A DNA stretch of 64,000 nt. Origin: Chloroflexota bacterium. Its GTDB lineage: Bacteria > Chloroflexota > Anaerolineae > Anaerolineales > Villigracilaceae. The stretch covers positions 62,001 to 126,000 of the forward strand of contig JAIOOU010000016.1 in NCBI GenBank assembly GCA_021414245.1, written 5' to 3'. Position numbers and translations under genes: made by a program. Below, one piece after another: positions 1,552 through 52,683 of this stretch. The notes under the pieces are model-generated. The model was not told the DNA's origin and did not search any database. It was given only the letters and a program-made list of their open reading frames with translations. The stretch's first letter is position 1. The number at the start of each line of letters is the position of its first letter.

Positions 1552-1557
1552 ATTATA
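1552..1557 (-). promoter_or_regulatory. -10 box of the DMT exporter gene
   Basis: TATAAT on the minus strand ends 8 bases before the ATG at 1543. Transcription would begin at or next to the start codon. No convincing Shine-Dalgarno sequence lies between them. Confidence 0.55.
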
Positions 1558-2387: not shown

Positions 2388-2480
2388 TTGCCCCCCATTA
2401 TGTCACAAAACATGCATGGAGACCACCGGTTTTTCGAAGGCATACTTCGGTAATTCCGGTGGTCTTCCAGGGTGTTCGTT

Positions 2481-16791: not shown

Positions 16792-16872
16792 TGTTGTTAA
16801 GGAAAATAAAGGCGATTCTTACTCCCCCCTTTTATTTGGCTATTATCACTGCGATCATTAAGGAGAACACGA

Positions 16873-18114
16873 ATGAGAAAACGTGTAGTTATTACGGGGC
16901 TTGGCTGTGTGAGCCCCGTGGGTAATAATGTAAACGATACCTGGCAGGCGCTTCTGGCTGGAAAATCCGGCGCAGCCCCCATCACGGCTTTTGATGCGAG
17001 CGCGCACAAGACCAAATTCGCGGCGGAAGTCAAGGGATTTGATGCAGCGGCGTTGTTTGGCACCCGGGACGCCCGCAAAATGGATCGATTCGCCCAGCTT
17101 GCCACGGCGGCAACGCTTGAGGCAATTGCGCAATCCGGATTGATCATTGACGATTCAAACAGGGATCGCGTTGGGATATTGATAGGCTCTGGAATCGGCG
17201 GGATTCTCACACTGATCGAGCAGTACGAAGTCATGCGGCAGCGGGGCCCCGATCGGGTCAGCCCTTTTCTGATTCCGATGATGATCTCGGATAGCGCGGC
17301 GGGTAATCTGGCAATTCGTGTCGGAGCACGCGGACCCAATATGTCGCTGGCCACGGCCTGCGCCTCCGGGACCAATGCGTTGGGTGAAGCGGCCGAGATG
17401 ATCCGGCGCGGGGCCGCGGACGTAATGATCGCAGGCGCCTCCGAGGCCGGCATCAGCGCAATTGCCATGGCTGGCATGAATGTCATGACTGCCTTGTCCA
17501 CCCGCAACGAAGATCCCCGGAAGGCATCCCGGCCCTTTGACAAAAACCGGGATGGATTTGTGATGGGGGAGGGCGCGGGGATTTTGATCCTCGAGTCACT
17601 GGAATATGCCCAGGCACGCGGGGCCAAAATTCTTTGTGAGTTTACCGGTTATGGAACGACGGACGATGCCCACCACATTTCCGCGCCTGCGGAGGATGGA
17701 GCCGGCGCCGCGAACTCCATGCGGCTGGCTTTGAAGGATTCCGGCCTCAGGCTTGAGGAGATCGGATACATCAATGCGCATGGCACGTCGACCCCCATGA
17801 ATGACAAGAGCGAGACCAGCGCGATCAAAACGGTATTCGGCGGACAGGCATATAAGATCCCGGTTTCCTCCACAAAATCCATGACCGGCCATTTGCTGGG
17901 GGCCTCTGGCGCGCTTGAAGCCGTGGTCGGCTGCATGGTCCTGATCGATCATGTCCTGCCTCCCACGATCAATTATGAAACGCCGGATCCAAATTGTGAC
18001 CTCGACTATGTTCCCAACCAGTCCCGCAAGGCGAATCCATTGCACATCATGTCCAATTCATTCGGGTTTGGCGGACACAATGCGACTTTGATCCTCAGCC
18101 GCTTTAATCAATAA
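16873..18114 (+). CDS. fabF: 3-oxoacyl-[acyl-carrier-protein] synthase II
   Basis: The 413-residue condensing enzyme has all active-site residues at the E. coli FabF positions: Cys163 in ATACASG, His303 in NAHGTST, Lys335 and His340 in STKSMTGHLLG, and the glycine-rich FGFGGHNA end. It extends acyl-ACP by two carbons using malonyl-ACP. AAGGAG precedes the ATG and fabH follows 10 bases after the stop, so both belong to one operon. A second FabF lies at 32044. Confidence 0.96.
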   Translation: MRKRVVITGLGCVSPVGNNVNDTWQALLAGKSGAAPITAFDASAHKTKFAAEVKGFDAAALFGTRDARKMDRFAQLATAATLEAIAQSGLIIDDSNRDRVGILIGSGIGGILTLIEQYEVMRQRGPDRVSPFLIPMMISDSAAGNLAIRVGARGPNMSLATACASGTNALGEAAEMIRRGAADVMIAGASEAGISAIAMAGMNVMTALSTRNEDPRKASRPFDKNRDGFVMGEGAGILILESLEYAQARGAKILCEFTGYGTTDDAHHISAPAEDGAGAANSMRLALKDSGLRLEEIGYINAHGTSTPMNDKSETSAIKTVFGGQAYKIPVSSTKSMTGHLLGASGALEAVVGCMVLIDHVLPPTINYETPDPNCDLDYVPNQSRKANPLHIMSNSFGFGGHNATLILSRFNQ

Positions 18115-19470: not shown

Positions 19471-19503
19471 AAAGAGACCGCCGGTCACCGGCGGTCTCTT
19501 TTT
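19470..19503. terminator. Bidirectional terminator between tatA and the yyaL-like gene
   Basis: AAAAGAGACCGCCGGT and its complement form a long stem, with TCTCTTTTTATT on one side and A-rich DNA on the other, so it works in both directions. It begins on the tatA stop and touches the stop of the convergent gene. Confidence 0.85.
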
Positions 19504-21547
19504 ATTCCTTAAGCAGGTCCCTGATGATCTCGAGGTCTGTGCTGGGCTGCCTGCACACAAAACCCTCGCAGACGTACACCGCAGGCCTTCCATTCAGGAG
19601 GGGACGGTCCCGCAGCAAAGGCGGCGCTGTGTTTGGAGGGGGGGAAATGGAGGAAGCCACCACCAGCCCCGGCCGATATTCGGAGCGGATCAGTTTGAGA
19701 ATCTCCCGAAGATTTACGTGCCCCGCATCGCTGACCACCGCAACCTGTTTTGTGTTTCGAAGGGCCAGCTCCAAGACGGACAGCCAGCGGGTGAAGCCAA
19801 GCGGATATCTCAAGGCTGAATCGCCGACCAGCAACAAGGCTTTTTCGGCGAGATCGCGATAATGGCCCTCGTCGGTAAAGGATGCGAGTTTCAATAAAGC
19901 TTCACACGCGAGCGCATTGCCGGATGGGACGGCGTTATCTGAAATTTCCTTGGGCCGGATCAACAGGTTTTCGCCATCCAGCGGCGTATCGAAGAATCCG
20001 CCGGCGGGGTCGTTAAATTTTGCGATCATTTCATTGGCAAGCTCTACGGCCGGGGAGAACCAGCGATCCTCGAAATCCGTTTGATAGAGCTCCAGCAGCC
20101 CCAGAATCAGAGAAGCATAATCCTCCAGAAAGACCGCGTTCGTTGTTGTGCCGTTCCGCGAGGAGCGGCGTAATTGGCCGTTGGGACGCAAGGCAGTCAA
20201 CAGAAAAGCGGCGCTTCGCGTAGCCACGTGAAGGTATTCTTCGTTATCAAAGACTCGTGCGGCTTCTGCAAAGGCCGCCAGCATTAATCCATTCCACCCG
20301 GCAAGGATCTTGTCGTCGGTGCCGGGTCGAATTCGTCCGTGGCGGACCGCAACCAGCCTGGCATGAGACTCCCCCAATAGGGCAGGGACAGCTTCAGGGT
20401 CAAGATTGAAGCGGGCGGCGAGGGAGGAGTCATCCAGTGCGCGATGCAGAACCGTCTTGCCCTCCCAGTTGCCCTGGGCGGTAATCCCATACGCCGCCTC
20501 AAAAAGCTCCGATTCCGTTTGCAGGATCGCGCGGATCTCCTCAAGGGTCCAGACGTAGAATTTGCCCTCCTCGCCTTCGGAATCTGCGTCCAGAGAGGAA
20601 TAAAAGCCGCCTTGAGCGTGGGTCATTTCGCGCATGATGAAGCGGAGGGTTTCCTCGACGATGCGCTTGAACGCAGGTTCGCCGGTGACCTGCCATGCAT
20701 GCAGGTAGGTCCGGCTCAGCAGGGCGTTGTCGTACAGCATTTTTTCAAAATGAGGCACGCGCCAGAATTTGTCGGTGCTGTAACGCGAGAATCCGCCGCC
20801 TGCCACGTCGTACATCCCGCCGCGGGCCATGCTGTGCAGACAGTGGCTGACCAATTTCGAAATTTTTTCCGTTTGCGGGGAGGGGTCCCGGGTGAGTGTG
20901 TTGTGCTGGAGCAGGAAATCCAGGGCCATGGCCTGGGGAAATTTTGGGGCGTCCCCCCAGCCGCCATAACCCCAGTCATAGGAGTTGGTCATCGAGTCGG
21001 CCATGGCTTCCAGATGATCCAGCGATAACATTTCGCTGATGTTGTTTTTGGTTTGATGCTGCAGGTGACCGATGACCTGCGCGCCGACTTTCTCGATCTC
21101 GTGCCGGTCATTCTGCCAGGCGTTCGCCAGGCCGGCCAGGATGTCCTTGAAGGCGGGCATGTTGTAACGCCGCACAGGCGGGAAATAGGTGCCTGTGTAA
21201 AACGGTTTCAGGTCCGGGGCCAAAAAGACGGACATGGGCCAGCCGCCTGAGCCGGTCATTGCGATCGTGGCCTGCATGTACATGCTGTCGAGATCCGGGC
21301 GTTCCTCGCGGTCCACCTTGATGTTGATGAAATGCTCGTTCATGTAGGCGGCGGTTTCGTCGTCTTCGAAGGATTCATGGGCCATGACGTGACACCAGTG
21401 GCAGGCGGCATACCCGATGCTTAAAAAGATCGGTTTATCCTCCTGCCTGGCTTTGTTCAGGGCTTCCTCGCCCCAAGGGAACCAATCCACGGGATTGTGG
21501 GCGTGCTGGAGCAAATACGGGGATGTTGACTGGGATAAACGGTTCAT
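19502..21547 (-). CDS. YyaL/DUF255 thioredoxin-domain protein
   Basis: The 681-residue protein begins [24 protein letters not shown], the hallmark of the DUF255 (spermatogenesis-associated 20) family, and has a CHWCH redox-like motif in [16 protein letters not shown] near residue 50. A six-hairpin (alpha/alpha) barrel fills the C-terminal two thirds ([34 protein letters not shown]). The precise reaction is unknown in the family. The ATG at 21547 fits the family start; a TTG 9 bases upstream is less likely. Its -10 box lies 10 bases away, at the edge of truncated RHS DNA. Confidence 0.9.
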
Positions 21548-21557
21548 GGGTATCAAA

Positions 21558-21563
21558 ATTATA
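21558..21563 (-). promoter_or_regulatory. -10 box of the yyaL-like gene
   Basis: TATAAT on the minus strand ends 10 bases before the ATG at 21547. The matching -35 region would fall at the border of the RHS remnant. Confidence 0.5.
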
Positions 21564-23345: not shown

Positions 23346-24065
23346 GTGGGGAACTTGTTTGCCCAAGTTTGGCGTGGGACTTGCTCTTGCTCGGCGTGGG
23401 ACTCTGTCCCCGCCGAGTTCTGTTTAACTACCAAAGGCCTGCAACTTGGTGATGACGTCCGCAGCGCGGACGGCGGTACTGGCGAAGTGGAGCAGGTCAC
23501 CACCGAGCAGACCACGGCGGAGATGTATAATCTCACCGTTGACGAGGCGCACACGTTCACCGTGGGCCACGGTCAATGGTTGGTGCATAATACGTGCGAT
23601 TTTCGGCGGATTGCGTATGGGAGTGATGAATTGAGCCGAGCCGCACAGCAATTTAGAATAGATTTCGGTTTGCATGGTTCAGGAACCAACATAGCAGTTT
23701 TCCAATTAGATGGACACTTGCCCTCAAGCCTTATTGATGAAATTACCGCCAACCCAAAGTGGCTCAGGGCAGATGACAATCTAATTATTGCGAAAAATGC
23801 AGGCAAAGGTGGAGATCATGCAGAAGTAGTATTAAATAACCTTTTAAAAAATAATGGAATCGACAGAACACAGGTGGCAGCTGTATATTCCGAATTTAGC
23901 TCATGCACTGGCAACAATAGTTGTTTTGATTTACTCAATTTTGGTGGATATAGAAACAACTTACCAGTCCGATTTAGTTTTCAATATCCAAACGAACGTA
24001 TTATAAGAAATAGTGCCATTCAAAATCTAATTACAAATGGAAATCCAGGAATAATTGTGCCATGA
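23346..24065 (+). CDS. Orphan toxin cassette: Hint fragment plus deaminase-like toxin
   Basis: Residues 30-82 are the end of a pretoxin Hint domain (KGLQLGDD, EMYNLTVDEAHTFTVGHG, ending LVHN). Residues 83-239 form a new domain with HAE at 158-160 and a Cys pair at 187 and 193 (YSEFSSCTGNNSC). HxE followed by Cys-x(2-6)-Cys is the zinc site of nucleic-acid deaminases found at the tips of polymorphic toxins. The start (GTG) lies in unrelated DNA and includes a hairpin repeat, so the cassette is probably not secreted by itself. It would gain a delivery domain by recombination. The gene overlaps its neighbour by 4 bases. Confidence 0.7.
   Translation: MGNLFAQVWRGTCSCSAWDSVPAEFCLTTKGLQLGDDVRSADGGTGEVEQVTTEQTTAEMYNLTVDEAHTFTVGHGQWLVHNTCDFRRIAYGSDELSRAAQQFRIDFGLHGSGTNIAVFQLDGHLPSSLIDEITANPKWLRADDNLIIAKNAGKGGDHAEVVLNNLLKNNGIDRTQVAAVYSEFSSCTGNNSCFDLLNFGGYRNNLPVRFSFQYPNERIIRNSAIQNLITNGNPGIIVP
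23388..23428 (+). repeat. Cassette-boundary hairpin repeat, copy 1
   Basis: TGCTCGGCGTGGGACTCTGT is followed by CCCCGCCGAG and a GTTTAAC end. The stem CTCGGCG...CGCCGAG folds over a short centre. It lies right before the Hint fragment of the deaminase cassette and is read through in the open frame. Nearly the same sequence occurs at 24765 and 25812. Confidence 0.8.
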
Positions 24066-24751
24066 TAACAATCAGAGACTATAAGGATTTTTGGCAAAAT
24101 GATTTGGCAAGGATTACGCTTTCTAAACAGATCAAGGAAGTGCTCGCCCCTTCAGCAATCTCATTTTTGATTCAATATGGACTTCCGACCATCGACAGAA
24201 TTTACAAGGAGAGAAGAACTTTTTTAGAAAAGACAACGCCTCTTCCTCAAATCATGTTACATGAAAAATCTATTGAGGAAAATATAAGAAGGCAGTCCCC
24301 ATATTTTGAATTTGCATCTTCTATGTTTTCTAAGCTCGTATTTCAAGGGCAAGAATACATTAGAATTGGGGTTGAGGGTGGTTGTGATATTGCAGTTGCA
24401 GTGAATTCAGGGAGCATTCATCACATTGATTCAGCCCCTCCTTTTGAACCATGGCCAGTCGATCTCCCGCCACCTCCTGCGCAGAACCTGTTCGTGAATA
24501 GCAGTGTAGAGAAGCTAGCCTTGTCCCTTACAGCGGAATTTATGGCCAAACAAAAATCAATAGTTCCCAGAAAAAAATATGTTGACTCTATTGAATCCGA
24601 TTCAATGGACATGCAGAATGAAGCAGAAGAAGAAATAGATAGGATTGTCAACCAGCTTGAAAACGAATTAAGAGAAATTGACAGTCTTGCTTTTGAAATA
24701 AAGAATAGCTATTGGGGGAATTATATGCTGTATGCCAGATACCCGGGGTAA
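24062..24751 (+). CDS. SUKH-like immunity protein for the deaminase-like toxin
   Basis: The 229-residue protein overlaps the toxin stop by 4 bases (ATGA). The layout agrees with the SUKH superfamily (SUKH-4 type): LAPSAISFLIQYGLPTI at the front, a central IRIGVEGGCDIAVAVNSGSIHHID beta segment in outline, and FVNSSVEKLALSL near residue 140. SUKH proteins bind and block many nuclease and deaminase tips. The last 60 residues are a charged helical extension. Family placement is by pattern, not alignment. Confidence 0.65.
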   Translation: MITIRDYKDFWQNDLARITLSKQIKEVLAPSAISFLIQYGLPTIDRIYKERRTFLEKTTPLPQIMLHEKSIEENIRRQSPYFEFASSMFSKLVFQGQEYIRIGVEGGCDIAVAVNSGSIHHIDSAPPFEPWPVDLPPPPAQNLFVNSSVEKLALSLTAEFMAKQKSIVPRKKYVDSIESDSMDMQNEAEEEIDRIVNQLENELREIDSLAFEIKNSYWGNYMLYARYPG

Positions 24752-24764
24752 CCTTCTGCGCACT

Positions 24765-24807
24765 TGCTCGGCGTGGGACTCCTGTCCCCGCCGAGTTTTT
24801 ATTTAAC
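24765..24807 (+). repeat. Cassette-boundary hairpin repeat, copy 2
   Basis: TGCTCGGCGTGGGACTCCTG, then TCCCCGCCGAG and TTTTTATTTAAC. It differs from copy 1 by a single inserted C and the T-run. The stem plus T-run gives it the form of a Rho-independent terminator after the SUKH-like gene. Confidence 0.82.
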
Positions 24808-24847
24808 ACCGCAATCCCATTCACTACACCCGGGGACATGTTTAGAG

Positions 24848-24898
24848 GGTGGGACTGGCGAAGTGGAGCGGGTCACCGGCGGGCAGACCACTTAGGAG
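24848..24898 (+). pseudogene. Decayed Hint fragment before the AHH cassette
   Basis: In frame with the next gene this reads GGTGEVERVTGGQTT, a TAG stop (24893-24895), then E. The same text in the previous cassette is GGTGEVEQVTTEQTTAE, so TAG has replaced a GCG-type codon region. The stop separates this piece from the Hint end at 24899. Confidence 0.75.
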
Positions 24899-25351
24899 AT
24901 GTATAATCTCACCGTTGACGAGGCGCACACGTTCTTCGTGGGCCACGGTCAATGGTGGGTGCATAATGCATGTGACAGGGCAGCCCTTGCTCGAGCACTT
25001 GAAAGCATAGTTGGAGATCAAAAACAAGCACATCACTTAATACCTTGCGAGCTTTGCTCAGAGCCAGTAGTTAAATTGGCCATTGAAGGTGGTTTCCCGT
25101 TCAATGGAAAACCAAATGGTGTTCTTTTGCCGGATAACATAGATTTGAGCCGCAAGATTAATCTGCCTGTTCATCGTGGGCCGCATGATCTTTACACCGA
25201 TAGAGTTTTGGAAGATATTAAACTTCTAAATAAACAAGCGCAAGCAAATAACTGGTTACCTGCTGACGCGAGAGCAGCCTTGGAGAATTTAACTAGTGGA
25301 GAGTTAATGAATAGGCTTAGAGAAATGGGCGGCGGTGTTTATTTGAAATAG
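24899..25351 (+). CDS. Orphan toxin cassette: Hint end plus AHH nuclease
   Basis: The first 23 residues (MYNLTVDEAHTFFVGHGQWW, then VHN) are the Hint C-terminus. Residues 24-150 are an AHH-type HNH/endonuclease VII toxin: QAHHLIPCEL (AHH at residues 44-46), GFPFNGKPNGVLLP and LPVHRGPHDLYTDRVL with further catalytic His. AHH nucleases cut DNA or RNA in target cells. The start codon falls inside the Hint sequence after an in-frame stop, so the piece looks like an orphan tip. The immunity gene follows 16 bases after. Confidence 0.8.
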   Translation: MYNLTVDEAHTFFVGHGQWWVHNACDRAALARALESIVGDQKQAHHLIPCELCSEPVVKLAIEGGFPFNGKPNGVLLPDNIDLSRKINLPVHRGPHDLYTDRVLEDIKLLNKQAQANNWLPADARAALENLTSGELMNRLREMGGGVYLK

Positions 25352-25367
25352 AGAAAGGAGAAGATTT

Positions 25368-25802
25368 ATGCCAAAACAGCTAAATTACCTTGAAACAAAT
25401 ATTGAAATATTAAACAAAGCCATTAAAACGTCTCGACAGTTGCATGAATATATGAGTAAGTACAATTGGGATTTCGGCACGGAAATACCTTATTGGGCTA
25501 TAAGAAATCCTTTATGCGATCGTGGCACTGCTTTAATGATTTACTGGATGGCTGGTGCAGGATATTTCTGCCGATATAAAAGCCGCGATGACATTCCTTC
25601 ATATAAAACAGAAAGATATGATTTAATTCTTGAAATTGAAGGAAATTATCTATCAAACTTCTACACAAAAAATGACATAAAATTTGATCCTGTTTCTGAT
25701 CTTGAAAAGGACAGCAAGGGACGTAACTGGGTCGATGAATACTCGGACATGCCTCAACTTCGCCAAATTCCTGCTCAAATGTTAGAGTCAAACCGAAAAT
25801 AA
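25368..25802 (+). CDS. DUF4274-type immunity protein for the AHH nuclease
   Basis: The 144-residue protein has the text YNWDFGTEIPYWAIRNP and CDRGTALMIYW, which is the mark of DUF4274 proteins. These are common beside polymorphic toxins and are taken as immunity proteins. GAAAGGAG lies about 9 bases before the ATG. No signal peptide is present, consistent with action in the cytoplasm of the producer. Confidence 0.75.
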   Translation: MPKQLNYLETNIEILNKAIKTSRQLHEYMSKYNWDFGTEIPYWAIRNPLCDRGTALMIYWMAGAGYFCRYKSRDDIPSYKTERYDLILEIEGNYLSNFYTKNDIKFDPVSDLEKDSKGRNWVDEYSDMPQLRQIPAQMLESNRK

Positions 25803-25811
25803 ATAACCCTT

Positions 25812-25855
25812 TGCTCGGCGGGGGACTCTGTCCCCGCCGAGTTTTTTTATTTAAC
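25812..25855 (+). repeat. Cassette-boundary hairpin repeat, copy 3
   Basis: TGCTCGGCGGGGGACTCTGT, then CCCCGCCGAG and TTTTTTTATTTAAC. This copy has the best stem (11-12 pairs) and the longest T-run, so it is a strong terminator after the DUF4274 gene. The next Hint remnant begins 11 bases further on. Confidence 0.85.
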
Positions 25856-25866
25856 TCATCTTGCAT

Positions 25867-25944
25867 CCCGTCACAGACACTATCCATCACACGGACAAGA
25901 CCATTGTCCACTTGACCATTGACGGTGAAGAGATCGTTACGATG
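25867..25944 (+). pseudogene. Hint remnant, central part
   Basis: The plus strand reads PVTDTIHHTDKTIVHLTIDG, then EEIVTM, which matches the middle of pretoxin Hint domains (VTxTxxH...VHLTIDGExIxTTPEHPF). The text breaks exactly where TTPEHP should follow. The continuation is at 26545, beyond a two-gene insert. Confidence 0.72.
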
Positions 25945-25950
25945 CTCCGG

Positions 25951-26166
25951 TTATGTCGCCAGCGGCGAGAGCGCATACACGCGGGCGAGTTTTTGGGCGG
26001 TTTTGAAATCTTTATGCTGTAATGCTTCGCGTATATCATCCAATTTGTTCGCGTCCTCCAGTGAAAGATACGGCGACCATTCGTCATCTGTGTAAATTAA
26101 TTCCACGCTAACTTCGGCGGCATATTCGCCGACATGGATTAGTTTTGTAATTTTACGTTTGGTCAT
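25951..26166 (-). CDS. Antitoxin-like partner of the DUF4258 protein
   Basis: The 71-residue protein has an N-terminal beta region ([18 protein letters not shown]) and C-terminal helices ([19 protein letters not shown]). It overlaps the DUF4258 gene by 4 bases. Such small proteins typically accompany DUF4258 genes in toxin-antitoxin-like pairs. No specific antitoxin family was recognised. Confidence 0.65.
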
Positions 26167-26486
26167 TTTAATCTCCTTGTAAAGCCATCAACCCAGCGCG
26201 CAGGGTCAGGGCGATAAGCAGTCACCAATACCGCAGGGGCCCGAGCTCCCTTGGGAAGGCCCCAAACAACATGAATAAGATTGCCCTGCCTGTCCTTTTG
26301 CAAAACCAGTACGCAAGGTCCCTTCGGATATTCAGGATAATCTTCGACAACCTGTGCCTCGGAAACGCCTTCGATGATTTCGCGGACCAGCAGGTCGTCA
26401 TTGGCAAGCTCATCATAACCATGCGCAGATATTTGAATTTGTCCCTGTTCAATCAATTTGCGAATTTGCTCAAGGGTTGGGCTCAT
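26163..26486 (-). CDS. DUF4258 protein, probable toxin of a toxin-antitoxin pair
   Basis: The 107-residue protein reads [26 protein letters not shown], seen as the pattern xSxHgxxrlxxR/Dxixxxdvxxal, and ends [26 protein letters not shown]. This is the DUF4258 design, a RelE/BECR-like fold with a conserved His near the N-terminus. Members are RNase-type toxins or their relatives. The pair sits inside the broken Hint sequence. Confidence 0.75.
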
Positions 26487-26544
26487 CGAAAATGATTATA
26501 CCTGAATCGCATTGAGCAAAATCTCCTTGGTGATGAGCAGAATA

Positions 26545-26583
26545 CTGGATGCCAAGGACCTTCAACTTGGTGATGACGTCCAA
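26545..26583 (+). pseudogene. Hint remnant, downstream part
   Basis: The plus strand reads LDAKDLQLGDDVQ, equal to the Hint text (V)DAKDLQLGDDVRS and closely like TKGLQLGDDVRS of the deaminase cassette; the DNA CAACTTGGTGATGACGTCC is identical in both. It stops after GDDVQ, and no toxin follows. Confidence 0.72.
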
Positions 26584-26699
26584 ATTCCCACTGCCTATGC
26601 TGAATGTGCAGGGGAAATCGGGGGGAGGCAGGCTGGAACCACCGGTATTGGGTCTCGACCCTGTGCGGAATGGGGGATTAACTTCCCGTTTGGGGTGGA

Positions 26700-26705
26700 T
26701 ATAAT
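26700..26705 (+). promoter_or_regulatory. -10 box before the lipoprotein gene
   Basis: GTGGATATAATCTT contains TATAAT, 30 bases before the ATG at 26736. The -35 region is weak. Confidence 0.5.
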
Positions 26706-26735
26706 CTTTTGCATCTTACCCAAAGGAGAAGAGAA

Positions 26736-27176
26736 ATGAAGAAGAAAAGTATATTGCTCGCCCTGGTTGCACTGCTTCTAGCGTCGCTTGCCTGTCAGAC
26801 AATTATGGGCGGCGGAAACGGACCGGCCTTCCCCGGCAGCGGTTCGGATGCCCCGACAGCCCCGCCCTCCACGGGAGATGGCGGCAGCATCACGGTCGGC
26901 GGGGAGGCGCCCTTTCCGGTGACGGGCGATGCCTTTAATGTGGCCAGCACCTCCGAGTCGGTCAGCTACCAGACCCAGCTGAGCAGTGACGATGTGGTCA
27001 AGTTCTATCAGGATGAGTTTGGAAAATTGGGATATACCGAAGACAAGTCCATGGCGGTCAATTTTGGCGGCGCATTCACCATGGGGTTTGACGGCCATGA
27101 GAGCGGCCGGAAGATCGTGATCGGCGGCGCGGCCGTGGGGGAGGGCTCCACCTCGGTCACCATCGTCTTGCAATAG
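26736..27176 (+). CDS. Lipoprotein of unknown function
   Basis: The 146-residue protein has a short signal peptide with lipobox LASLAC (Cys near residue 19), then a Gly/Pro/Ser-rich linker to about residue 60 and a folded part (DDVVKFYQDEFGKLGYTED...). The folded part resembles small alpha/beta domains in which a helix with FYxxxLxxxGY follows a strand, as in many surface lipoproteins. AAAGGAGAAG precedes the ATG. No partner gene is close. Confidence 0.75.
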   Translation: MKKKSILLALVALLLASLACQTIMGGGNGPAFPGSGSDAPTAPPSTGDGGSITVGGEAPFPVTGDAFNVASTSESVSYQTQLSSDDVVKFYQDEFGKLGYTEDKSMAVNFGGAFTMGFDGHESGRKIVIGGAAVGEGSTSVTIVLQ

Positions 27177-27190
27177 ATCGACCAGCACGG

Positions 27191-27226
27191 AAGGGTCCGG
27201 CAGCATGGAATATTGCCGGACCCTTT
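27191..27226. terminator. Bidirectional terminator
   Basis: AAGGGTCCGGCA (27191-27202) pairs with TGCCGGACCCTT (27214-27225), with an 11-base loop. It serves the lipoprotein gene and the convergent pabB gene, whose stop it touches. Confidence 0.8.
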
Positions 27227-28928
27227 ATATTTTAACGTCCACCCATTTCCGAAGGGAATTAACCAGGTAGATGTGTGTACAATTCGCTACTTCTTCCTTG
27301 CGAATGACCTGTTCCGCGATCTTCCCGGTTTCCAGCAGGTGAGCCCGAAAGGTGCCTGCCAGCAGTCCGCAGGAGATGGGCGGGGTGAGCAGCCTTCCGC
27401 CCATCTCAACCACAAGATTTCCAATCGTGAATTCGGTCAACTCGCCCTGCTCGTTATGCAGCAGGACATCGTCATACCCGTCCAGGGCGGGGTAGATCTC
27501 CCTGCGCGAGGTCTTGTGAAAATAAAACATGTTGCGGGATTGGACGGGGTGGTCGGCCAGTTTTACCCTCATGGGTTTTGAGGGAGGAATGAATTCCGCA
27601 GATTCGACGGTGATTTCCCCCGAAGACCTTAATATGACTTTTACCCGCATGGGTATCGGGGAAACTGGCGTGTGGTCTTCGAGCGCCTTGAGAAAATCCT
27701 GCCCTGAAAAGTGGAAATCAAAATATTCGGCAGAATCCGCAAGCCGTGCCATGTGTTTATCCGGCAAAAAATATCCCCCGGCCGGGTCCCAAAGCAGGGT
27801 TTCGAATAAGTGGAATTCCTGGGGCGCTTCGGTCAACACCCTGGCTTTAAGTAGGGCTTCCTGATATTCATCCGCGCTGGTGGAGTCCCACACGATTCCG
27901 CCCCCAACCCCATATTCGGCCTTGCCTGCCTCCCGGTCAACCAGGACCGTGCGAATGGCCACGTTGAATTGGGCATCGCGCTCCGGCGACAGATAGCCAA
28001 TACTTCCGGTGTAGATCTTGCGGGCGGTGATCTCCAGCCCGGAGATCAACTTCATGGTGCTGATCTTGGGGGCGCCCGTGATCGATGCGCACGGAAAGAG
28101 CGCCGCAAATATGTCCGTAATGGAGGCGGTGGTGCGTGCCTGCACGGTGGATGTCATTTGCAGGAGGGTGGGATATTTTTCCACGTGAAATAATTCGGGC
28201 ACGCGCACACTGCCGGTTTCGGCGATTCGCCCGAGATCGTTGCGGACCATGTCCACGATCATCACATTTTCAGCCCGGTTCTTTGGCGAATTGTGCAGCC
28301 AGTCCGCCTGGGTTTGGTCCTCACCGGTGGTGCGTCCGCGTTTGACCGTGCCCTTCATCGGGCGGCTGTAAATTTTGTCCCCGTCCAGCCGGAAAAACAA
28401 TTCCGGCGATGCGGAGCAGATCTCATACCGCCCGGTGTTGATGTAGGCCGCGTATTGATTTTGTGTCCGGGCCAGGGCCAGAAAAAGGTCCCAGCCGCCT
28501 CCGGTCATTTCAGAAACCAGGCGCATGGTGTAATTGACCTGATAGGTGTTGCCCCGCGCGATATGGTCCTTTATTTTTTCAATGGACGCGCGATATTCCG
28601 CCTCAGACGTGGTCGGCTGCCAGGTTAAGGAATCCAGTCCGCGCCCGGGGGCAGGTAATTCGACCATTCGGCTTTCCGAGTACAGTCCGAACCAAAGCAG
28701 TGGAAATTCCCCGGCTGGATGGGTTTGAAAGGCGGGATCAAAGGCGCAGGCCGCTTCGTAACTGACAAACCCGGCTGCGTGCCAGCGATTTGACGCAACC
28801 AGTCCTTCGACCTCCCGCAAAGCTCCGCGCACCTCCCCCGGCTTGCTTGCGCTTATAATGCAGTGCGGATTCGAGAAATGCCGCCACTCATTTTTTATTT
28901 TCAATAAAACTTCATTCTCTTCGATCAA
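27225..28928 (-). CDS. pabB: Aminodeoxychorismate synthase component I fused to aminodeoxychorismate lyase
   Basis: The 567-residue protein joins a chorismate-binding domain (about residues 1-370; RPMKGTVKRGRT, NVMIVDMVRNDLGRIA, FPCASITGAPKIS) with a class-IV aminotransferase-like domain (about 375-567; FETLLWDP, LTEFTIGNLVVE). This PabB-PabC fusion makes 4-aminobenzoate for folate: chorismate to aminodeoxychorismate, then loss of pyruvate. The glutaminase PabA is not adjacent. The start is TTG with GAGG 7 bases before it; no in-frame ATG is close. Confidence 0.92.
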   Translation of the reverse strand: MIEENEVLLKIKNEWRHFSNPHCIISASKPGEVRGALREVEGLVASNRWHAAGFVSYEAACAFDPAFQTHPAGEFPLLWFGLYSESRMVELPAPGRGLDSLTWQPTTSEAEYRASIEKIKDHIARGNTYQVNYTMRLVSEMTGGGWDLFLALARTQNQYAAYINTGRYEICSASPELFFRLDGDKIYSRPMKGTVKRGRTTGEDQTQADWLHNSPKNRAENVMIVDMVRNDLGRIAETGSVRVPELFHVEKYPTLLQMTSTVQARTTASITDIFAALFPCASITGAPKISTMKLISGLEITARKIYTGSIGYLSPERDAQFNVAIRTVLVDREAGKAEYGVGGGIVWDSTSADEYQEALLKARVLTEAPQEFHLFETLLWDPAGGYFLPDKHMARLADSAEYFDFHFSGQDFLKALEDHTPVSPIPMRVKVILRSSGEITVESAEFIPPSKPMRVKLADHPVQSRNMFYFHKTSRREIYPALDGYDDVLLHNEQGELTEFTIGNLVVEMGGRLLTPPISCGLLAGTFRAHLLETGKIAEQVIRKEEVANCTHIYLVNSLRKWVDVKI

Positions 28929-29351: not shown

Positions 29352-30125
29352 CTACTCGAATTCAATTTCCAATTCCTCGTCGTCCTTCCATTCCCCCATT
29401 TTTTCAAATTCGATCTCTCCAAACAACTCGTGCTGCACTGCGGTAATATGATAGCGTTTGATCAACTCCAGCATCGCCAGGAAGGTCACCACGATCTCGA
29501 CCCGCGTCGCTTTGTCGGTGATCAGGCCGCTGAAGGTCATGCGTTGAATGTTCTTCATGGTTTTGGTGATGAATTCGATCTTTTCGCGGATCGTAATTCT
29601 GGGGGCCGAGATGACCGTGCTCAGCGCCTGTTTATCCTTGCCTTTTGAAAAGGCGTTTTCAGCCGCCCGCAAGAGCCCTTCCAGCGTCAAATTGGACAGG
29701 TCCAGCTTGGCTTCCACCTTCGGGGGCGGAGCCACGCGCAAATAGGTGCGCAGATTATTTTCCTGGCGTTCGATCAGCCAACCCGCGATTTCCTTGTAGC
29801 GTTTGTACAGGATCAGAAGCTCAACCAGTTCAACCCCGGGGTCTTCCTCTCCGGGTTCGCGCTCGATCGGCCTGGGCAGCAGGGCCTCGGATTTGATCTG
29901 GACCAGCTTGGCGGCGATCACCAAAAAGGAGGAAATTTCATCCGGCTTCATTTGTTCGAGTCCGTGCAAATAGGAAAGATATTGATCGGTCACGGAGGCA
30001 AGCGAAATGGCCGTAATGCTTAATTCGGATCGTTCGATCAGACTCAGTAAAAGGTCAAGCGGACCCTCGTAAACAGGCGTCTGCACTTTGTAGCCGGTGA
30101 TTTGTTGTCCCAACAGGTTGTCCAT
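29352..30125 (-). CDS. scpA: Segregation and condensation protein A
   Basis: The 257-residue protein begins [21 protein letters not shown], the mark of ScpA, the kleisin that links SMC heads. The C-terminal winged helix ([20 protein letters not shown]) is also typical. It helps condense and separate chromosomes. The ATG at 30125 fits the family start; an in-frame extension upstream is unlikely. A TATAAT box lies 9 bases before the start. scpB is not adjacent. Confidence 0.93.
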
Positions 30126-30134
30126 CGCGCGCAA

Positions 30135-30152
30135 ATTATACCAGTGTATAAT
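30135..30152. promoter_or_regulatory. Back-to-back -10 boxes of scpA and moaC
   Basis: ATTATACCAGTGTATAAT is a near-perfect palindrome. Read leftwards it gives TATAAT 9 bases before scpA; read rightwards it gives TATAAT 7 bases before moaC. Both mRNAs would be leaderless or almost so, and the two polymerases would compete for the same DNA. Confidence 0.7.
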
Positions 30153-30159
30153 CCTGAGC

Positions 30160-30636
30160 ATGTCAAAACTTACACATCTGGATGAACACGGGCGGGCCAG
30201 CATGGTGGATGTCAGCGCCAAGCCCGATACGGATCGGGTTGCGGTTGCCCGCGGCGAAGTACATATGCAGCGCGAGACCTTTAACCTGATCCGGGCCGGC
30301 CAAATCAAAAAAGGCGACGTTCTCACAGTTGCGCAGATCGCAGGGATCAGCGCTTCAAAACGGACCTCGGACCTGATCCCGTTATGTCATCCGCTCTTCC
30401 TTTCGAAGGTGGATGTCGACCTCGTGCTGGACGAATCCATCCCCGGCGTTGTCATTACCGCTACGGCCAGGGTCACCGGCAAGACCGGCGTGGAAATGGA
30501 GGCTCTCACAGCGGTTTCGGTGGCAGCCCTGACAGTCTACGACATGGCCAAGGCCGTTGAAAAGACCATGCGGATTCAAAATATCCGTCTGATCGAAAAG
30601 CACGGCGGGCGCAGCGGGGACGTGGTCAATGAATAA
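30160..30636 (+). CDS. moaC: Cyclic pyranopterin monophosphate synthase
   Basis: The 158-residue protein shows [33 protein letters not shown], and [22 protein letters not shown] with conserved Lys, His, Glu and Asp of the MoaC site. It turns the MoaA product into cyclic pyranopterin monophosphate, the first stable step of molybdenum cofactor synthesis. The ATG at 30160 was chosen because it matches the family and the upstream extension overlaps scpA. moaA is not in the window. Confidence 0.96.
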
Positions 30637-34524: not shown

Positions 34525-34530
34525 TATGAT
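34525..34530 (+). promoter_or_regulatory. -10 box of murI
   Basis: TATGAT ends exactly 7 bases before the ATG at 34538, so transcription would begin on the start codon. TTGCAT lies 19 bases further upstream as a possible -35 box. Confidence 0.6.
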
Positions 34531-34537
34531 TTTCCGC

Positions 34538-35356
34538 ATGTCAAAAGTTGAAAATCCCATCGGTGTATTTGACTCTGGCGTGGGCGGACTCTCCGTCCTG
34601 CGTGCGATGCGCGCGCTGATGCCCAATGAGAACATGATCTACCTCGGCGATCAGGGACATGTCCCTTATGGTCCGCGGCCGATGGAGGAGATCCAGAAAT
34701 TTTCAGAGAGGATCACGCGTTTTCTGCTAAAGCAGAATTCCAAATTGATCGTGGTGGCCTGCAATACGGCTTCAGCGGCCGCTTTGACATATTTGCGTAA
34801 ACAATTTCCGGAAGTCACTTTTGTGGGCATGGAACCTGCCGTCAAGCCGGCTGCCGAAACAACCAGGACCGGCAGGGTCGGCGTGCTGGCCACCCCGGCT
34901 ACCTTCCAGGGCGCCTTGTATGCATCTGTGGTGGAAAGATTTGGTACCGCTGTCGAATTGTTCCAAAATACCTGCCCCGGGCTGGTGGGGCAGATTGAAA
35001 AAGGCGAGTTGACTTCAACGGCCACCCGGTCCATTTTGGAGGATGCGCTTGGCCCCATGCTGGAAAAGAACATTGATACGGTCGTTTTGGGATGCACCCA
35101 CTATCCGTTTGTGATCCCCCTGATTGAACAGATCGTGGGAAAAAATGTGCGGGTGATCGACCCAGCCCCCTCGGTGGCGAGACAGGCCAAACGTCTGCTT
35201 GAAGCGGCCGGGATGCTTAATCAGTCAGGGGAACGTGGGGCAGTCCGCTTTCTCACTTCCGGAGATCCTGCTTCGATGAAATCCCTGTTGCCTTTATTGT
35301 TGGGCTCGCAGGGCGAAGTTCAGCCGTTTGTCTGGAAGGGTGATCGTGAGATCTGA
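34538..35356 (+). CDS. murI: Glutamate racemase
   Basis: The protein (272 residues) begins IGVFDSGVGGLSVLRAM and has the two catalytic cysteines Cys75 (VACNTASA) and Cys186 (LGCTHYPF). It makes D-glutamate for peptidoglycan, which implies the host has a peptidoglycan wall. The ATG at 34538 is preferred over that at 34526, which overlaps the -10 box and adds a non-conserved MIFR. Confidence 0.95.
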   Translation: MSKVENPIGVFDSGVGGLSVLRAMRALMPNENMIYLGDQGHVPYGPRPMEEIQKFSERITRFLLKQNSKLIVVACNTASAAALTYLRKQFPEVTFVGMEPAVKPAAETTRTGRVGVLATPATFQGALYASVVERFGTAVELFQNTCPGLVGQIEKGELTSTATRSILEDALGPMLEKNIDTVVLGCTHYPFVIPLIEQIVGKNVRVIDPAPSVARQAKRLLEAAGMLNQSGERGAVRFLTSGDPASMKSLLPLLLGSQGEVQPFVWKGDREI

Positions 35357-52022: not shown

Positions 52023-52028
52023 TATAAT
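52023..52028 (+). promoter_or_regulatory. -10 box before the SET gene
   Basis: TATAAT lies 7 bases before an ATG at 52036, in frame with the SET gene, and about 150 bases before the ATG at 52180. Confidence 0.5.
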
Positions 52029-52179
52029 TCGGCCCATGCTGTGGAAGATTCAGCCATGCAAATCCCAAATCCAGGCTGACGTTGTGAAAAAGACCGGCGG
52101 TCTTGCCGGACCGTCGATCTGGGTTGCCATTCTTGAATCTGTTTCACACTTTCGGCGCGCTCAATCAAATCGAGGTGTA

Positions 52180-52683
52180 ATGATCTATTCCTATCTCAAT
52201 TCCAAATGTGAATCCCGTGACCATGTCGAAGGCGGTTGCGGCGTGTTTGCAAAATCACCGATCGAAAAAGGGGAATTGGTTTCGTTGTGGGGCGGCCGGA
52301 TCGTCCGCAGGGACGAACTTGACCCGTCCATGCCGCGTTTTACCCAGCGGGTACTTCAGGTTGACGAGGATTTGTTTTTATTGACAGCTGAAGAGCCTGA
52401 ACCGAATGATTGCTTCAATCATTCCTGCGAGCCCAACCTGGGATTCTTCGGCCAGATCGGTTTGGTGGCTTTGAGGAGGATCGAGGCAGGTGAGGAATTA
52501 AGTTTCGATTATGCCATGTCGGATGGCGGGCCTTACGATGAATTCGATTGTTACTGCGGGACTTCGGGCTGCCGAAAAAAGATCTTGGGTAATGATTGGA
52601 GACTTCCCGAATTGTGGGCCCGCTACGACGGGTATTTTTCGCCTTACCTCGCCCGGCGGATACGTTCAGTGCGCAGCAGGTAG
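52180..52683 (+). CDS. SET-domain protein
   Basis: The protein has the SET pattern: GGCGVFAKSPIEKGELVSLWGG at the front (in outline), NDCFNHSCEPNLGF, GEELSFDYAM and a post-SET zinc knuckle CYCGTSGCRKKI. SET enzymes methylate lysine in proteins; in bacteria targets are mostly unknown. The ATG at 52180 was chosen because GAGGTG lies 5 bases before it and the family begins close to this point. An in-frame ATG at 52036 would add 48 residues without family likeness and would be leaderless. Confidence 0.8.
   Translation: MIYSYLNSKCESRDHVEGGCGVFAKSPIEKGELVSLWGGRIVRRDELDPSMPRFTQRVLQVDEDLFLLTAEEPEPNDCFNHSCEPNLGFFGQIGLVALRRIEAGEELSFDYAMSDGGPYDEFDCYCGTSGCRKKILGNDWRLPELWARYDGYFSPYLARRIRSVRSR

Follow-up and report, generated by a model that had tools for sequence, protein, structure and literature searches.

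The glutamate racemase gene murI lies in a 64,000-nucleotide stretch of DNA from a Chloroflexota bacterium (the window in what follows), and a box resembling the -10 element TATAAT stands only seven bases before its ATG. This layout raises the question of whether transcription of such genes starts at, or almost at, the start codon. The original prediction had named six genes of the window with such a box 7 to 10 bases before ATG, and all six boxes were found at the claimed spacers (7 for murI and moaC, 8 for the DMT exporter, 9 for scpA and arfB, and 10 for the yyaL-like gene; Table 1). A SET-domain gene and a DUF4258 gene were found as two boxed cases beyond these six. The normal AGGAG Shine-Dalgarno (SD) sites that had been reported before fabF, fabH, tatA and the korAB-like genes were confirmed in the sequence as well, the identities of these genes being assigned by Pfam. 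The starts of murI and moaC were picked by coding potential alone, and arfB was left out of the box tallies below because its CATAAT lacks the first T of TATAAT.

Table 1 Boxes, spacers and genes in the window (positions are those of the window).
Feature	Position	Strand	Remarks
murI -10 box TATGAT	34525-34530	+	7-nt spacer tttccgc, then ATG at 34538-34540
murI (glutamate racemase), predicted leaderless	34538-35356	+	Pfam Asp_Glu_race
moaC -10 box TATAAT	30147-30152	+	7-nt spacer
moaC, predicted leaderless	30160-30636	+	Pfam MoaC
scpA -10 box TATAAT	30135-30140	-	9-nt spacer; preceded by TG at 30142-30143 (extended -10)
scpA, predicted leader ~3 nt	29352-30125	-	Pfam SMC_ScpA; leader length suggested by the family loci
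Divergent scpA/moaC intergenic region, 34 bp	30126-30159	.	two back-to-back -10 boxes inside
DMT/EamA exporter -10 box TATAAT	1552-1557	-	spacer 8; gene 665-1543; Pfam EamA
arfB weak -10-like CATAAT	2397-2402	-	spacer 9; gene 1992-2387; Pfam RF-1 domain
yyaL-like (DUF255) -10 box TATAAT	21558-21563	-	spacer 10; gene 19502-21547; Pfam Thioredox_DsbH
SET-domain gene -10 box TATAAT	52023-52028	+	spacer 7; gene 52036-52683; Pfam
DUF4258 gene -10 box TATAAT	26495-26500	-	spacer 8; gene 26163-26486; Pfam
fabF AGGAG Shine-Dalgarno	16861-16865	+	gene 16873-18114; example of SD mode

As a separate observation, the GC content of positions 24001-28000 of the window is 0.478, compared to ~0.50-0.55 in the other 4-kb blocks, and few genes were called between ~23.1 and 26.7 kb. 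This region is possibly acquired or decaying.

Boxes at start codons in the window and across its genome

Inside the window, the excess of boxes is small and not decisive: 11 ATG-initiated open reading frames of at least 80 aa carry one at spacer 5-10, versus 3, 5, 7, 9 and 3 for five ranges, likewise six spacers wide, at greater distance. Such numbers would suit the idea that AT-rich upstream DNA makes TATAAT-N7-ATG frequent by chance. The original prediction had proposed a count of this arrangement over the whole genome (a MAG of 3.87 Mb in 17 contigs), and there it proved far above chance, with 129 occurrences of TATAATN{6,7}ATG against 35 when the box was moved to N{16,17}, and 165 of TATAATN{6,8}ATG against 33 for the reversed pattern.

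Genes were called with coding potential only, using no upstream signal, in 1.264 Mb (the window and sixty 20-kb stretches), which gave 1059 genes; a box was defined as TA..T with at least five of six matches to TATAAT. Boxed genes at spacers 4 to 12 numbered 1, 3, 34, 28, 9, 7, 7, 6 and 3, with a sharp maximum at 6 and 7, and the 9, 7 and 7 genes at spacers 8, 9 and 10 were barely above background. Seven genes at sequence edges were removed for the shuffle and SD tallies, leaving 1052. The 62 boxes found at spacers 6 and 7 before called starts compare to a mean of 6.3 and a maximum of 14 in 200 dinucleotide shuffles (mean 6.1 and maximum 17 in an earlier run of 50). The -10-like signal ~12 bp before the start that marks TA-led genes (see the last section) is thus present above shuffle expectation. 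For ATG starts only, 87 genes were boxed at spacers 5-10, versus 31, 43 and 36 at spacers 15-20, 25-30 and 35-40, a modest excess of 44-56 genes or 4-5% of the genes in the 1.264-Mb sample. In a small control with the same caller (200 kb of E. coli K-12), 0 of 154 genes had a box at spacers 6 and 7. As an explanation for the whole genome, chance is refuted by the shuffles, by the shifted and reversed controls and by the conservation among orthologs described below, and its probability is practically negligible; it may explain single genes such as yyaL.

Start calling by coding potential is imprecise, and just 234 of the 1059 genes have an unambiguous start, which leaves room for the reading that the ATGs are misassigned and that the boxes are ordinary promoters with the real start codons further downstream. 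The unambiguous set has the same maximum, however: 12 of its genes are boxed at spacer 6 and 9 at spacer 7.

The layout and the spacing, which are read directly from the DNA, very probably reflect sigma70-type -10 elements placed at start codons, yielding leaderless or near-leaderless mRNAs and compact promoters for divergent genes. With a spacer of 6-7, transcription would begin at the A of the start codon; with a spacer of 8-10, it would begin one to four bases ahead of it. As the genome-wide peak lies at 6-7, the mRNAs of the DMT exporter, scpA, arfB and yyaL-like genes, with spacers of 8-10, would have leaders of ~1-4 nt. We infer from these distances not only the start points but also leaderless translation, in which ribosomes would initiate on a 5′-terminal AUG of mRNAs mostly devoid of an SD site.

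Two modes of start selection coexist in this genome, as had been proposed from the window: an SD site was found in 460 of the 1052 genes (about 44% in the sampled 1.264 Mb), a box at 5-10 in 88, and both in only 5. The rarity of SD sites among genes boxed at 5-10 (5/88), a trait also expected of TA-led genes, is in part a matter of geometry, since a box at this distance takes up the bases that an SD would need. Genes boxed at 18-23, 24-29, 30-35 and 36-41 carried an SD site in 23/36, 28/44, 25/42 and 21/31 cases (60-68%), or 97/153 when the four windows are summed and the same gene may count twice, and the contrast between boxes at 5-10 and at 18-41 has a Fisher p of 5e-20. The boxes also vary with the neighbouring gene: they precede 41 of the 214 genes whose upstream neighbour lies on the opposite strand but 9 of the 369 with a codirectional gap of at most 30 bp (Fisher p 8e-12).

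The -35 element expected ~17 bp upstream of a sigma70-type -10 was not found to be enriched: TTG ending 15-19 bp before the box was hit 10 times in 83 genes, no more than the 60 hits in 464 of a fake-box control. A partial extended -10 was seen instead, with G at -14 in 46 of the 83 boxed promoters of the genes without SD in the window's own genome. These 83 genes start with ATG in 82 cases, and boxed genes show a moderate preference for C at -1 (60% vs 42% in SD genes). The unenriched -35 would also fit a purely translational signal, an AT-rich, unstructured or S1-binding stretch within longer leadered mRNAs that is no promoter at all, and parts of PMC5397173 consider whether AT-rich sequence at -20 to -10 might be an S1 signal. 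Yet a U-rich S1 site needs neither TATAAT at exactly 6-7 nor TG at -15/-14, and it would not predict the scarcity of boxes at tightly codirectional genes. The exact spacing, the TG and the neighbour bias make this translational reading very unlikely, and promoters adjoining the start codon remain the preferred explanation.

Conservation among relatives and spread across Chloroflexota

Orthologous loci were compared using the family, order and class ranks given with the genome set, the order being presumably Anaerolineales; the counts for moaC, scpA, murI and yyaL include the window's own locus. The moaC gene was detected in 54 of 61 family genomes, and all 54 loci were read (the best 30 first, the other 24 later). 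TATAAT was found at spacer 6 (36 loci) or 7 (17 loci) in 53 of them, and the locus without a box, L167, has a gap of 737 bp to scpA. Across the family loci, the moaC ATG lies 0, 3 or 6 nt off the reference start while its distance to the box is kept at 6 or 7, which means that the ATG moves with the box. Among 20 loci hand-picked across other families of the order from 78 matches, TATAAT-N6/7 was present in 16 (once before GTG). Outside the order, TATAAT was present in 1 of 11 loci, at spacer 9, and an SD site in 5 of 11.

The scpA gene lies near moaC in 48 loci and is boxed in 47 of them, at spacer 9 in 35, 8 in 5, 10 in 5 and 7 in 2. An extended -10 precedes its box, with T at -15 in 33/47 and G at -14 in 43/47. 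The spacer-9 loci prefer C at position 6 after the box (26/35) and G at position 7 (25/35), which suggests a leader of ~3 nt for scpA.

The two other genes were less constant. For murI, the best 30 family loci from 59 genomes with a match were read; 16 of them are boxed, eight at spacer 6 and eight at spacer 7. Of the 14 unboxed loci, three have an SD site, one has no upstream sequence and one shows N in its place. A further comparison covered the 47 best-matching named murI relatives (L001-L047; 59-81% identity, Chloroflexota MAGs, mostly Anaerolineales). Twenty of the 46 with sufficient upstream sequence match the box in at least five of six positions, 16 of them at spacer 6 or 7, and 3 of the 47 have an SD site. 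For yyaL, a conserved box was sought in the best 30 loci from 46 genomes with a match and was not found: 8 of the 30 loci are boxed, at spacers 7-11, and 6 unboxed loci have an SD site. Box and spacer thus appear strongly kept at moaC and scpA, kept in half of the loci at murI and not kept at yyaL. The mixture of boxed and SD loci at genes like murI and yyaL would mean that single genes can switch between the two modes, which moaC and scpA hardly do within the family.

These alignments bear on the reading of the ATGs as wrongly assigned, since the moaC and murI loci start near homologous positions; together with the identical peak among unambiguous starts, this renders it very unlikely indeed. 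The original prediction of near-leaderless mRNAs is supported computationally by the peak at spacers of 6-7, the neighbour bias, the few SD sites and the distances kept at moaC and scpA. Spacers of 8-10 are weak genome-wide; among the genes with such spacers, the scpA box at 9 is strongly kept and the yyaL box at 10 is not.

Two other features were observed at these genes. In L008, L010, L011, L016, L020, L023, L028, L031 and L032, murI is immediately preceded by an inverted-repeat element of the GTAATTCGTAAT / ATTACGAATTAC type, the 3′ arm of which provides the -10-like box in some of these relatives (e.g., L016, L020 and L023); a regular-expression search for this element in the 1.264 Mb sampled from the window's own genome found none. 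Partial second yyaL-like matches with one in-frame stop each were seen in G090, G242, G257, G038 and G130, as if from a decaying truncated paralog.

To follow the signal across the phylum, we compared the number of TATAATN{6,7}ATG matches (near) with that of the same box moved to N{16,17} (shifted) in 201 Chloroflexota genomes. The order, represented by 17 genomes, gave 1899 near and 608 shifted matches, with a ratio of at least 2 in 15 of these genomes and lower values in G178 (97/83) and G210 (84/45). Eight genomes of the same class gave 164/89, three of them at a ratio of at least 2. Outside the class, 69 of 176 genomes, selected by eye for larger counts, gave 3093/2616, with six at a ratio of at least 2. 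The other 107 were mostly low-count genomes, and at least seven were omitted despite 16-21 total matches (G012, G025, G043, G087, G127, G167 and G187; near/shifted 0.6-1.4). The box signal is therefore strong in the order and weak elsewhere in the phylum.

Divergent genes around one palindromic box

A control region reduced to a box and its spacer would allow divergent genes to sit back to back. The scpA and moaC genes are divergent in all of the best 30 family loci (of 54), with gaps of 23-259 bp in which the boxes and spacers stay, and the two -10 boxes, within a few tens of bp in the window, would each serve one gene. In the two shortest gaps among these 30 loci (L140 and L147), the boxes are fused into ATTATAAT. 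Doubly boxed divergent pairs as such showed hardly any excess in the 1.264 Mb (8 of 107, with 6.1 expected under independence).

The fused arrangement was searched with the pattern CATN{6,10}ATTATAATN{6,10}ATG, which returned 87 sites in 56 of 151 order genomes, including 29 sites in 14 of 17 family genomes, versus 11 sites for the reversed control. With spacers of 16-20, the pattern gave 25 sites in 19 of the 151 order genomes and 2 sites in 2 of the 17 family genomes; outside the order, it gave 18 sites in 16 of 184 phylum genomes. Open reading frames of at least 90 aa flank 24 of 37 examined sites on both sides, and 13 lack one on one side. This is not an unbiased rate, as 36 sites were hand-picked from the 87, the second batch partly for likeness to earlier ones, and the 37th (L113) is a one-sided site, one of the two palindromic sites of the window's own genome. 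This site (G000, contig C4:52746-52775) is flanked by an ORF of 161 aa and, on its opposite side, by one of 14 aa, and is therefore no promoter of two genes.

Around one ATTATAAT, mutL and a HAD hydrolase gene form a divergent pair in seven genomes: G000 (the window's own genome, contig C14), G122, G056, G130, G065, G106 and, from another family, G382. These pairs were retrieved via the palindrome pattern itself, so the seven genomes are motif-selected and do not give a conservation rate. In all seven, the ATGs are exactly 20 bp apart with spacers of 6 and 6, though the pattern allowed 6-10. The identity of HAD and MutL was established by Pfam for one pair (L181) and by BLAST clustering with it for the others. 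At the paired ATGs, MutL starts with an IAAGEV-type and the HAD protein with a DLDDTLYP-type sequence, which we take to be their usual N-termini. Motifs expected at the N-terminus and placed directly at the ATGs speak further against misassigned starts; in two of the seven pairs (L292 and L293), the HAD frame is open further upstream with other ATGs.

We regard it as somewhat more probable than not that in Anaerolineales this 8-bp palindromic -10 (ATTATAAT) and its 20-bp gap constitute the complete core promoter of mutL and the HAD hydrolase gene and give rise to two exactly leaderless mRNAs. RNA polymerase would bind the palindrome in either orientation, and the orientation taken would pick the gene each time the promoter fires. 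The gap would leave no space for a 5′ UTR or an SD site, and any -35 contacts would fall inside the coding DNA of the neighbour. We infer this two-way firing from the symmetry of the box and from predicted starts 21 bp apart, within the 7-25 bp between divergent starts that characterizes symmetric bidirectional promoters. Other arrangements fit less easily, as they would place the transcription start further up, within the adjacent gene; the same holds for a translational signal in leadered mRNAs, whose upstream start would have to lie in the neighbour's coding DNA.

A MutL-cluster protein of G262 (L308) has the palindrome in common with a different partner, at spacers 9 and 6. A PLD-domain (phospholipase-D-like) gene and a phosphoribosyltransferase gene also surround one ATTATAAT in five genomes of one family (L183, L184, L301, L302 and L303). 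The gap is 21-23 bp in these pairs, and some of their starts are ambiguous because of a second ATG, in frame and 9 nt upstream.

Relation to known leaderless genes and bidirectional promoters

The leaderless transcriptome of M. tuberculosis is said to be a mix of leaderless and SD-led genes. Bacterial TA-led (leaderless) genes with a TAtaaT signal ~12 bp upstream of the start are described in the parts of Zheng et al. 2011 (PMC3160421) compared here, whose Table 2 gives 4.0-5.7% TA-led genes for 4 of 12 Chloroflexi genomes, 35.9-46.1% for Deinococcus-Thermus and 2.3-29.8% for Actinobacteria. The genes reported here resemble these, as a spacer of 6 puts the first T 12 bp upstream and as they are likewise classed apart from SD-led genes. 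Our excess of 4-5% is also similar to the share listed for the four Chloroflexi genomes, so that the kind is known from the predictions in that part of PMC3160421. Mycobacterium and Deinococcus-Thermus are also mixed, with leaderless shares that are, in the sources as consulted, larger on average than here. The parts of PMC3160421 used for this comparison do not name Anaerolineales, and our analysis adds gene-specific conservation, the contrast between clades and the shared boxes of divergent genes.

In the open-licence literature searched, no paper was found that deals with leaderless genes in Anaerolineales or with two leaderless genes served by a common palindromic -10. A 20-bp promoter for two putatively leaderless genes that recurs across genera, and such divergent pairs generally, look new. 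For many genes the promoter would adjoin the start codon, and some divergent neighbours appear to have one two-way promoter. Provided that both mRNAs are leaderless, one signal serves for promoter and start-codon selection alike and just ~20 bp suffice between two divergent genes, which would show how far bacterial gene control may be compressed. Such pairs would lend themselves to tests of leaderless initiation and of how polymerase orientation is chosen. These results also suggest that predictors of start codons, when applied to this large group of mostly uncultured bacteria, should include a -10 box 6-7 bases ahead among their start signals.

Symmetric -10 elements in bidirectional promoters were reportedly described by Warman in 2021. 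In the parts of PMC10268837 and PMC12825309 available for comparison, a near-symmetric -10 is read both ways, start pairs are counted when 7-25 bp apart, and the usual start spacing is 18 bp, with positions -7 and -11 coinciding. Such promoters are, according to a portion of PMC12825309, likelier than directional ones to drive mRNA, and the basal firing of five tested in E. coli is too low for polymerase competition. The mutL/HAD site resembles these promoters, as described in those portions, in having one near-symmetric -10 that would be read in both directions. It differs in offering a full TATAAT each way, offset by 2, with predicted starts 21 bp apart rather than 18 bp. Its products would moreover both be coding and are predicted to be leaderless, while the divergent RNA of known bidirectional promoters is, in the part of PMC10268837 considered, often antisense and non-coding.
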